64,000 nucleotides of DNA from Colwellia sp. 75C3 (GTDB lineage: Bacteria > Pseudomonadota > Gammaproteobacteria > Enterobacterales > Alteromonadaceae). Of this stretch, positions 48,869-63,881 are shown piece after piece. Every line of letters starts with the position of its first letter. Positions within the stretch are counted from its first letter, which is position 1. A program made the translations under genes and the position numbers. The notes beneath the pieces were generated by a model. That model did no database searches, was not told the DNA's origin, and saw nothing but the letters and a program-made list of their open reading frames with translations. The stretch spans positions 1 through 64,000 of the forward strand of contig NZ_PJAU01000052.1 in NCBI RefSeq assembly GCF_002836255.1, written 5' to 3'.

Positions 48869-48985
48869 ATACCAATCTCATTAAGTTTGTGATCTTGTTG
48901 TGCATAGTAAATATAAATCAGGGCAAGGCGCTTGATTGAGCAATAGCTGGCTATTGGGATTGAGAGCAACGCTGACATGGAGTAT
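48869..48985 (-). repeat. Intergenic miniature repeat D
   Basis: It starts with ATACCAATCTCATTAAG and carries a 48-nt core at 48924-48971, 46 of 48 identical in inverted orientation to the core at 62692-62739. The right end is not well defined. Confidence 0.7.
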
Positions 48986-49007
48986 TTTAACCCGCACAAG
49001 TGGGCAA

Positions 49008-49035
49008 TAAAAAAGGGTAACTTTCGTTACCCTTT
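49008..49035 (-). terminator. Terminator of the S8 protease gene
   Basis: AAAGGGTAAC, loop TTTC, GTTACCCTTT (49012-49035), with a minus-strand T-run following. It lies 43 bp after the stop. Confidence 0.85.
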
Positions 49036-60964: not shown

Positions 60965-61473
60965 TAAATTCTCTCGTGATGGTTTGAGGGCCTATTTATC
61001 TGCGTAATTAACTTTAAGTAAAGCTAATTACGCTCGTCTCTTAACCATAAATATTACAATTAAGCTAAGGCGCATAATATTTATCATGGTACACTGAACA
61101 GTATTAATATATAAAGAAATTAACGACCTTTTTGATTGTCGAATAATTTTTATTTTCCGTCTTTATTTATCAGTAATACCAATTTGATTAAATTTCTTCC
61201 CAGCTCAGAGCTGTGATCAATGTTCAATAACAAGGGAAATTTGTTTAGGTCTAGTCATTCTAAACCAAATAAATTTAACGATGTTAGTGGGCATTGGGTA
61301 TGCTCCCATAGGGCGAGTTTAAAGGGTTCATATGCGGCGTTATTGATTTTGAGAAGGGAATAACCATTCTATTCAATCAATGCCTTGCCTCTAAACCCTT
61401 TAACTCTCGCTGAGTGGGAAAGAACTTAATCAACTTGGTATAATCATTCATCAGTAAATTATCAGCCACAGAT
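60965..61473. other. Intergenic region, 509 bp
   Basis: It is largely filled by miniature element A (61176-61441). The rest holds the divergent promoters of murQ and alr. Confidence 0.5.
61176..61441. mobile_element. MITE-like element A, 266 bp
   Basis: It begins ATACCAATTTGATTAAATT and ends in the complement of ATACCAAGTTGATTAAGTT, so the terminal inverted repeats match with few changes. About 100 bp of its interior is similar, inverted, to element B. It has no ORF, so any movement would need a transposase in trans. It ends 32 bp before the alr start. Confidence 0.7.
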
Positions 61474-62631
61474 ATGAACCATACTTCCAGACTTACCCAA
61501 GCAGTTATCGACCTAGACGCCCTAGTTAAAAACTATCAATATATCGCTAATCTCGCGAGCAATAGTAATACCATTGCAGTTATTAAAGCAGATGCCTATG
61601 GCCATGATGCCACTAAAGTAGCTAGTGCTTTAAGCACTAGCGTTAATCTTTTTGCCGTTGGCTTTATTGATGAAGCGTTAGCACTGCGAAGTGATGGCAT
61701 TGATAACACAATACTCATTCTTGAAGGACCTTTTAAAGAAAGTGACTTTGAGATAGCGGTAGAGAATAATTTCTCTCTTATGCTACACAGTGACTATCAA
61801 ATTAAATGGCTGAGCGCTATGAATCCTGAGTTTTCTGGGGATGTATGGCTAAAAGTAGATACAGGAATGAACCGCTTAGGTTTCCAAGTTGAGCAAGTTG
61901 ACGACATCATGTCGAAATTAACCACTCAACAAAGAAAAAAATTGGTTCTGTGTTCACATTTTTCAACGGCTGAACAGATTAATAGCACTAAACCTGTAGA
62001 GCAACTGGCTAAATTAAAGAAGTTGGTTTCACAATATCACTGTAAATTTAGTATGGCTAACTCTGCGGGTATTTTAAATTGGCCAACAAGTCATGGCGAT
62101 CATACCCGATTAGGTTTAGCGCTTTATGGCATTTCTCCTATTGGTGATACTCCATTAAGCCAACCACTCATTCCAGTGATGACCTTACAAGCAAAGATTA
62201 TTGCTATACATACTGTAAAAACAGGTGAATATGTTGGTTACGGCGACATTTGGCAAGCTCAACGCGAAACGATTCTAGCAACCGTTGCCATTGGTTATGC
62301 TGATGGTTACCCGCGTAATGCTAAAGCAGGTACACCTGTATTCATCAAGGGTGCTATTGCTCCGCTGGTTGGTCGAGTTTCAATGGATATGGTCACTGTA
62401 GATATTACGGATCTAAATAATAGCGATTTAACGAATACCGGTTTAGATAACACCCATGTAGATAATACCGATGTAGATAATACCGATGTAGATAATATTA
62501 TAATCGGGGATACTGTTGAATTATGGGGTAAGAATATAAGTATTGATACCGTTGCTCAAAACAGCGATACCATTAATTATGAATTATTAACTCGCGTATC
62601 AAAACGGGTACCCAAAGTGATTGCGAGTTAA
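61474..62631 (+). CDS. alr: Alanine racemase with pentapeptide insertion
   Basis: A 385-residue PLP enzyme. The PLP lysine is Lys38 in AVIKADAYGH. VDTGMNRLGF, FSMANSAGIL, RLGLALYGISP and YVGYGDIW (catalytic Tyr) follow. It makes D-alanine for peptidoglycan. In the C-terminal domain the native VDITDL is followed by five further five-residue units (NNSDL to DNTDV) encoded by a 15-bp tandem repeat at 62401-62490, absent from usual Alr proteins. Confidence 0.94.
   Translation: MNHTSRLTQAVIDLDALVKNYQYIANLASNSNTIAVIKADAYGHDATKVASALSTSVNLFAVGFIDEALALRSDGIDNTILILEGPFKESDFEIAVENNFSLMLHSDYQIKWLSAMNPEFSGDVWLKVDTGMNRLGFQVEQVDDIMSKLTTQQRKKLVLCSHFSTAEQINSTKPVEQLAKLKKLVSQYHCKFSMANSAGILNWPTSHGDHTRLGLALYGISPIGDTPLSQPLIPVMTLQAKIIAIHTVKTGEYVGYGDIWQAQRETILATVAIGYADGYPRNAKAGTPVFIKGAIAPLVGRVSMDMVTVDITDLNNSDLTNTGLDNTHVDNTDVDNTDVDNIIIGDTVELWGKNISIDTVAQNSDTINYELLTRVSKRVPKVIAS
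62401..62490 (+). repeat. 15-bp tandem repeat within alr
   Basis: Six 15-bp units in frame. The first (GATATTACGGATCTA) encodes the conserved DITDL. The last two (GATAATACCGATGTA) are identical; earlier ones have diverged, so growth seems recent at the 3' side. Confidence 0.9.
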
Positions 62632-62634
62632 GTT

Positions 62635-62794
62635 ATACCAATTGCACTAAGTAAGTGATCATTTTCAAATGGGCTAAATATCCAATAACGTCGTTGCTTT
62701 CAATTCCAATAGCCAGCTATTGCTCAATCAAGCGCCTTGTTCTTGAAAATTTATTCTCATTAAATTCTGAAACCTTAATTAATCCAAATGGTAT
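62635..62794. mobile_element. Miniature repeat element C, 160 bp
   Basis: It is bounded by ATACCAATTG and the complement of ATACCATTTGGATTAATT, starting 3 bp after the alr stop. Its core (62692-62739) matches element D in inverse orientation, 46 of 48 bases. Confidence 0.65.
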
Positions 62795-62806
62795 TACTGA
62801 TATTTT

Positions 62807-63475
62807 TTATTCAATACCAATATATTTATGAACTTGCACTGATAAACGCCAGTTATTAGCGATACATGTTTCAATAGCTAATTCAGTTGCTCGTTGCTTT
62901 TGGCTAATCGGTTGTAAATATATTGGGGTATTTTCAATGTGATGTTTTGCCAATAGCGCCTTTAAGTCGTCAACATGTTGCTCTGTCGCCACCGGATGTT
63001 TTATTTCATTAGCACGTAACATAGCGCTTGCTAATACTTCATAACCACCACGCATATTGATTTTAGGCGAAACTGTTACCCAACATTTTTCCGTGGTGAC
63101 AACTTCAAACGTGCCTGATGTTTCAATTTGCGTACTATACCCTTGTTGTTCAAAGGTTTCACACAATGGCGTTAAGTCAACCATACAAGGTTCGCCGCCA
63201 GTAATAACAATATGTTTTGCTCGAAATTGTTTATCTTTCACTAACGCTAGAATATCTTCGGCTGTAAAATTAGACCATTGCACCGTTTCTGCTGTTTTAT
63301 TAAACATAACGTCAGGAGTAACTTGATCTTTAAGTTCAATATCCCAAGTATGTTTGGTATCACACCACGAACACCCTACAGGACAACCTTGTAATCGGAT
63401 GAAAATTGACGGCTGGCCCGTAAAGGAACCCTCCCCTTGAATCGTTTCAAAAAGTTCATTAATTTTATAGTTCAT
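62807..63475 (-). CDS. queE: 7-carboxy-7-deazaguanine synthase
   Basis: A 222-residue radical SAM enzyme. It has ETIQGEGSFTGQPSIFIRLQ, the cluster motif CPVGCSWC (Cys31, 35, 38), VITGGEPCMVD, and SPKINMRGG. It makes CDG from carboxy-tetrahydropterin in queuosine biosynthesis. It is divergent from queC, with element B between. Confidence 0.94.
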   Translation of the reverse strand: MNYKINELFETIQGEGSFTGQPSIFIRLQGCPVGCSWCDTKHTWDIELKDQVTPDVMFNKTAETVQWSNFTAEDILALVKDKQFRAKHIVITGGEPCMVDLTPLCETFEQQGYSTQIETSGTFEVVTTEKCWVTVSPKINMRGGYEVLASAMLRANEIKHPVATEQHVDDLKALLAKHHIENTPIYLQPISQKQRATELAIETCIANNWRLSVQVHKYIGIE

Positions 63476-63881
63476 TGGTGTTATGGTTTTCTCTTCTGCA
63501 TGGTGGTTTATTTCATACCAATCGGACTAATTTATTGATCACTTAGCGAGAATTAAAAGGCTTAGAGGTAAGGCATTGATTGACGAGAATGGTTATTCCC
63601 TTGTCAAAATCAATAACGCCGCATGTAAGCCTTTTAAACTCGCCCTTTGGGAGCTAATTAGCAAACTGATAACATCACAAAATGAATGAAATATAGAATA
63701 ACTATGTTTAACTCATTTTGCTTGTTTTAAGCTCGCTAATATAGCTCTAAGCTGACCAATAAATTAATCCGTTTGGTATTATTCGGCGTGGTATTCACTT
63801 TCTGCTTTAGCCTGTTGCTTATTTCAAGTAAAATAACAGTTGTTTATTATTATACCTTAGATCAATTAAGAGAGCTTTCAA
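63476..63881. other. Intergenic region, 406 bp
   Basis: It contains element B (63515-63779) and, right of it, the promoter region of queC. No preQ1 riboswitch was recognised. Confidence 0.5.
63515..63779. mobile_element. MITE-like element B, 265 bp
   Basis: It begins ATACCAATCGGACTAATTTA and ends in the complement of ATACCAAACGGATTAATTTA, giving about 33-bp terminal inverted repeats with few mismatches. It has the size of element A and shares an inverted interior of about 100 bp. No ORF. Confidence 0.72.

Follow-up and report, generated by a model that had tools for sequence, protein, structure and literature searches.

What are the two similar sequences that flank alr and queE in Colwellia sp. 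75C3, and can they flip the genes between them? An initial annotation of this locus had described a pair of MITE-like elements, A and B, in opposite orientation. We analyzed them in the window, the 64,000-nucleotide stretch at the start of contig NZ_PJAU01000052.1. As a MITE pair, A and B are ordinary. What is unusual is the family that shares their hairpin core.

Three elements around alr and queE

Both elements are real and lie where they had been annotated, with ATACCAA-type ends. Counted by those ends (ATACCAA..TTGGTAT), A is 266 bp and B is 265 bp long, and the exact limits in Table 1 are set by the target duplication. The inverted interior that they share is present but larger than the roughly 100 bp described at first, since 140 bp align at 84% identity in inverted orientation (61302-61441 with 63515-63654). 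The remainder of the alignment has lower identity and many gaps, and the shared stretches are 2073 bp apart. Words resembling the ends occur 30 times in the window versus a mean of 7.79 in shuffled sequences, and none of 100 shuffles reached that number.

The annotation had overlooked a third element, C, in the spacer of alr and queE, a second C-like copy elsewhere in the window, and the strong folds of A and B. All three elements (158-266 bp) have paired ends and contain no ORF of 80 aa or more. Element A folds strongly (z −8.1), as does element B on its minus strand (z −13.5); the fold of element C alone is not significant (z −1.4). In the folded A and B, the terminal repeats form a closing stem, which is joined by two long arms. 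A profile of element C had 30 matches in 24 sources, several of which overlap one place. At one locus (L079, positions 523-998; G000:C1:144822-145297), three C-like elements form a tandem array that repeats every 160 bp. The alr gene carries an in-frame repeat, NTDVDNTDVDN, ahead of its C-terminal part (window positions 62440-62500).

Table 1. Positions of the elements, their target duplications and the hairpin units in the window.
Feature	Position	Strand	Description
Element A	61177-61440	+	Two-arm MITE, TACCAA..TTGGTA; murQ-alr spacer; conserved arm faces alr
Left target duplication of A	61174-61176		TAA
Right target duplication of A	61441-61443		TAA
Conserved hairpin unit (right arm) of A	61307-61420	+	Model R1, 123.6 bits; A is among the 24 model sequences
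Element C	62636-62793		Short MITE, ends as in A and B; immediately follows alr; probably a member with one arm
Left target duplication of C	62633-62635		TTA
Right target duplication of C	62794-62796		TTA
Element B	63516-63778	-	Two-arm MITE, TACCAA..TTGGTA; queE-queC spacer; inverted relative to A
Left target duplication of B	63513-63515		Now TCA; single TTA at the site in G005
Right target duplication of B	63779-63781		TTA
Conserved hairpin unit (right arm) of B	63536-63649	-	Model R1, 127.4 bits; B is among the 24 model sequences
Second C-like element in the window	48870-49010	-	124.0 bits to the C profile

Copies, insertion sites and gene order

A search for further copies returned many. 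Within the genus, each of the 36 further genomes searched contains A-like sequence, as do 2 of 24 genomes from the rest of the order; counting Colwellia sp. 75C3 itself, the total is 39 of 61. In the genome of Colwellia sp. 75C3, where 40 of 118 candidates were scored, at least 47 rows match A, with some elements contributing a second row. We also built a covariance model, R1, of the right arm from 24 sequences of several genera (114 positions, 35 pairs). It gave at least 132 rows at no fewer than 110 places in the same genome, counts that are lower bounds because 150 of 4299 candidates were scored.

The surroundings of 85 copies were classified with a crude ORF caller, using named loci of at least 5 kb and copies at least 700 bp from the locus ends. 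None of the 85 lies inside an ORF of 100 aa or more. Of the 83 that were classed, 43 have co-directional, 19 convergent and 21 divergent neighbors, with background gaps numbering 146, 46 and 73, respectively.

Relatives of Colwellia sp. 75C3 provide empty sites. In genome G005, whose QueE is 96% identical, the matching spacers contain none of the three elements. The sites of B and C are clean there, with one TTA each, and the A site shows a few further base differences. For A, the clean empty site comes from G029 (QueE 93%), which has a single TAA. Other insertions occupy these spacers as well, namely one of the C type in G029 and one of type II, described below, in G023. A, B and C are MITE insertions and represent separate events. 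The MITE-like nature proposed for A and B is borne out by the terminal inverted repeats, the TNA duplication, the sites found empty in relatives and the large number of copies.

Target duplication was assessed in 56 copies, after leaving out 3 with incomplete ends from the 59 that scored at least 150 bits. Identical 3 bp, mostly TNA, stand on both sides of 35 of the 56 (shuffled mean 17.8, maximum 29 in 5000 shuffles). The middle base is equal in 41 copies and complementary in 5, which indicates that the flanking 3 bp are a direct repeat and not a continuation of the stem.

Two observations concern individual sites. The murQ-alr spacer of L158 (genome G062) has an apparently identical A at the corresponding site, with a QueE only 85% alike, while closer relatives are without A; this suggests local recombination or transfer. 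In L335, a 33-bp remnant (positions 2588-2620) contains little beyond the two ends and has TTA on both sides.

The initial annotation had further proposed that recombination between A and B could invert the alr-queE segment. We collected 40 queE matches in 39 genomes, which gave 30 loci, and alr is visible in 25 of these. In all 25, our own locus included, queE adjoins queC and alr lies on the other side, so the inversion found no support. The A/B-type profile matches four of the 30 loci (L145, which is our own, L152, L158 and L173). The opposite orientation of A and B and their shared 140 bp would suit an invertible cassette around alr and queE, but none of the loci with both genes is inverted and A and B are two independent insertions in a set of more than 100 copies, which makes such a cassette very improbable. 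Recombination between A and B is possible in principle only, because the shared tract is short and diverged.

One hairpin unit between different ends

In five loci (L160, L113, L114, L173 and L079; 36.9-68.2 bits, both arms counted), R1 also finds the left arm, on the opposite strand. The full element may therefore be interpreted as a single hairpin unit of about 113 nt that is present twice, in inverted orientation, with the terminal inverted repeats as the predicted closing stem. Part of the left-arm match is expected from shape, as R1 scores about 25-28 bits on the reverse complement of the hairpin in A and B. R1 fails to match the left arms of A and B themselves, and it also misses element C. 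In the Psychromonas loci L312 and L306, the C profile and R1 match at one place, so C is probably a one-arm, that is one-unit, member of the same superfamily.

In a chosen subset of 30 of the 59 high-scoring copies, 34 of the 75 predicted pairs include one or more sequences in which both partners have changed. When the two terminal repeats of each type-I copy are compared, positions 1-7 and 9-12 agree in 51-54 of 54 copies and position 13 in 37 of 54. Position 8 is a near-obligate mismatch of changing identity (52 of 54 copies; equal in 2). In four elements, an additional sequence of about 48 bp that consists of small hairpins is nested in the tip of an arm (L008, L010 and L084, right; L130, left). 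At the gathering score, Rfam had no match in the window and, among 20 loci, only three tRNA matches, in L118. A MIR1444 match in B reached 25.6 bits where 80 are needed and was taken as a chance hairpin. The identity of an integron attC site was considered and dropped, and phages gave no match to element B.

Together with its relatives, the unit makes up a superfamily present in many families of the class. Across the class, R1, which models one arm, was found in 39 of 369 genomes and 31 of 272 genera, our own included. Across the phylum, it was found in 38 of 398 genomes, 11 of these 38 in one family outside the class. A strict pattern occurs in 12 of 394 genomes of the order (10 of 114 genera), with none for the reversed control. 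A pattern scan of named genomes gave at least 111 stretches. The matches listed come mostly from Colwellia and Shewanella and further include Psychromonas, Pseudoalteromonas, Motilimonas, Catenovulum, Endozoicomonas, Pseudomonas, Nitrosomonas, Thiotrichaceae and Chromatiales. Matches in an Aquificaceae MAG (L281, L332) may be mis-binned. Four matches in genome G956 cover only model positions 28-82, the arm tip, with nearly equal scores, and are perhaps a shorter kind of unit.

We searched for ends at 51 sites from other loci and found them at 39, the other 12 having none or only the arm itself. Judged by their length, these 39 comprise 34 two-arm and five one-arm elements. Lengths, which are good to a few bases because the script extends the ends outward over complementary bases, are 261-277 bp for 32 of the 34 two-arm elements (median 267) and 163-180 bp for the five one-arm elements. 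The end sequences around the shared core differ widely, yet they stay complementary. They include TACCAA with TNA, TATACCC, TACTC flanked by CTAG, and the IS5-type GGGGCTGTTGATC. The flanks of TATACCC ends resemble TA irregularly and were not counted as duplication, and at the CTAG-flanked ends a duplication is not distinguishable from a longer palindrome.

The ends of type-II elements (L160, L084 and L139) equal those of an IS of 852-884 bp (L103-L105, L109). The 253-aa protein of this IS reaches 258.5 bits with the NCBIfam IS5 model NF033580 (cut-off 110). Of 263 aligned bases, L160 and L084 share 232; L160 and L139 share 208 of 262. R1 matches both arms of L160 (58.8 and 44.1 bits) and the arms of L139 only with E-values of 0.03-0.08; it does not match L084.

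For the TACCAA ends of A and B, a partial search of the genus found no transposase with matching ends. The families searched were PF13340 (8 genomes), PF01609 (6) and PF13586 (39), the first two covering part of the genus. No autonomous partner with TACCAA or CTAG-flanked ends was found by end pairs (98 loci; 364 loci), around transposase loci, or in 16 stretches around end-only matches in three distant genomes. Among the transposase loci examined, no IS5-type locus had TACCAA ends. Two candidates were rejected. The best pair of ends, in L335 (1232 bp, 22/22 identical), is the 33-bp remnant plus a separate full element, and L239, considered as an IS with one arm per end, is two single-arm elements about 1.2 kb apart, each with its own ends. 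We assume that TNA and TA target duplications fit IS5-type enzymes, with TNA matching IS5 subgroups. An IS5-related enzyme most likely mobilizes the TACCAA-ended elements, and elements sharing the core appear to have exchanged ends.

Alternatively, a single enzyme might recognize the hairpin and its closing stem by shape, in which case the ends could be any sequence and no change of transposase would be needed. The complementarity kept by such different ends and the narrow length range of the two-arm elements are consistent with this, but the type-II ends are those of an IS5-family IS and type-I elements hardly vary in their outermost TACCAA. We regard recognition by shape as quite unlikely.

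Covariation of the core and relation to known elements

Covariation was measured in 135 arms (134 distinct) from 84 chosen loci, using an alignment fitted to the structure and statistics that ignore relatedness. The consensus pairing holds in 91.4% of the cells versus 61.1% in shuffled alignments (none of 500 as high) and 33-47% in slid ones. Cells changed on both sides number 1438 versus 427 in shuffles, and the covariation score is 0.739 versus 0.180 shuffled and 0.07-0.12 slid. The pairs with a two-sided change (29 versus 27.0; 9 of 500 shuffles as high) and the pair types (115 versus 110.0; 22 of 500) hardly exceed the shuffles. The GC content of the arms ranges from 27% to 71%, and the islands GTTA, AAGGGAA.AACCATT and GCCTTG are nearly fixed. 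We infer that selection is the cause of the covariation.

A somewhat unlikely alternative is that the covariation is unselected, with template switching in near-palindromes copying arm onto arm in what would be plain MITEs. Blocks of the terminal repeats (columns 9-11) do change on both sides together, with hardly any intermediates. Such copying should, however, mend the mismatch at position 8, which persists between neighbors that are nearly always equal, and the nearly fixed islands are unpaired and shared across distant genera. It is also conceivable, but unlikely, that selection sees a transcript, the element making a functional structured RNA that, for example, sets the stability of a neighboring mRNA. 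The fold and the covariation would agree with this, and in 45 of 54 type-I copies the element-sense RNA has a better fold than the antisense RNA, with 192 G.U against 100 A.C. In unit orientation, by contrast, A.C exceeds G.U inside helices (62 versus 20) and antisense folds better in 86 of 135 arms. Within the helices of type I, G.U and A.C number 23 and 41 in the left arm on the top strand, which again speaks against a transcript, 15 and 19 in the right arm, and 22 and 17 in the closing stem. Folding nevertheless favors the top strand in 49 of 54 left arms and 38 of 54 right arms. Since these strand tests conflict, we do not conclude that there is a single functional RNA. Further points against it are that the arms are inverted copies, so that one transcript reads two different sequences, that the copies have no consistent orientation relative to co-directional neighbors (24 same, 19 opposite), and that no Rfam family matches in the window or the 20 loci.

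Taken as a whole, we consider it fairly probable that A, B and C were inserted separately as non-autonomous elements, mobilized in trans by a cut-and-paste transposase. This enzyme would most likely be IS5-related and create the TNA duplications. Inside, A and B would consist of an inverted pair of the unit of about 113 nt from a class-wide superfamily, with C probably containing one unit, and the core would hitchhike between different terminal repeats and so be able to use different transposases. The core behaves like a hitchhiker in that pairing is kept while the stems are rewritten, and in that it occurs between quite different terminal repeats. More tentatively, the family might be a class-wide mobile hairpin module with its fold under selection, whose conserved part is the middle and whose ends are adopted from available transposases, making it a transposase-agnostic genomic parasite.

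If this is true, MITEs are not necessarily deletion remnants of one IS, and a structured core can outlive and exchange transposases. With hundreds of natural variants showing covariation, the family is a good system for studying the function of the MITE interior. The insertions also show how the murQ-alr-queE-queC spacers of Colwellia come to differ between species.

The available parts of the open-access literature (including PMC10969869, PMC4853749 and PMC3733652) gave no description of this family, and a partial prior description is possible. Bacterial MITEs described there include ERIC, NEMIS/Correia, RUP, YPAL and QMITE2 (PMC10969869, PMC3733652). Like these, as far as those excerpts describe them, the present elements are shorter than 500 bp, gene-less, intergenic and folded, with terminal inverted repeats and direct repeats in younger copies. 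Unlike the MITEs in the same excerpts, they have an inverted-pair core that is found across many families between several kinds of ends. The IS5-family IS shares its ends with the type-II elements and has TA on both sides, but it encodes a transposase, whereas A, B and C are gene-less and have other ends (TACCAA, with TNA). REP dimers, GTAG and CGTC families, are, in the excerpted account (PMC3733652), likewise inverted pairs of hairpin units in many intergenic copies. Compared by length only, REP units are given there as 20-40 bp, whereas the units described here are about 113 nt and are closed by terminal repeats with target duplication.
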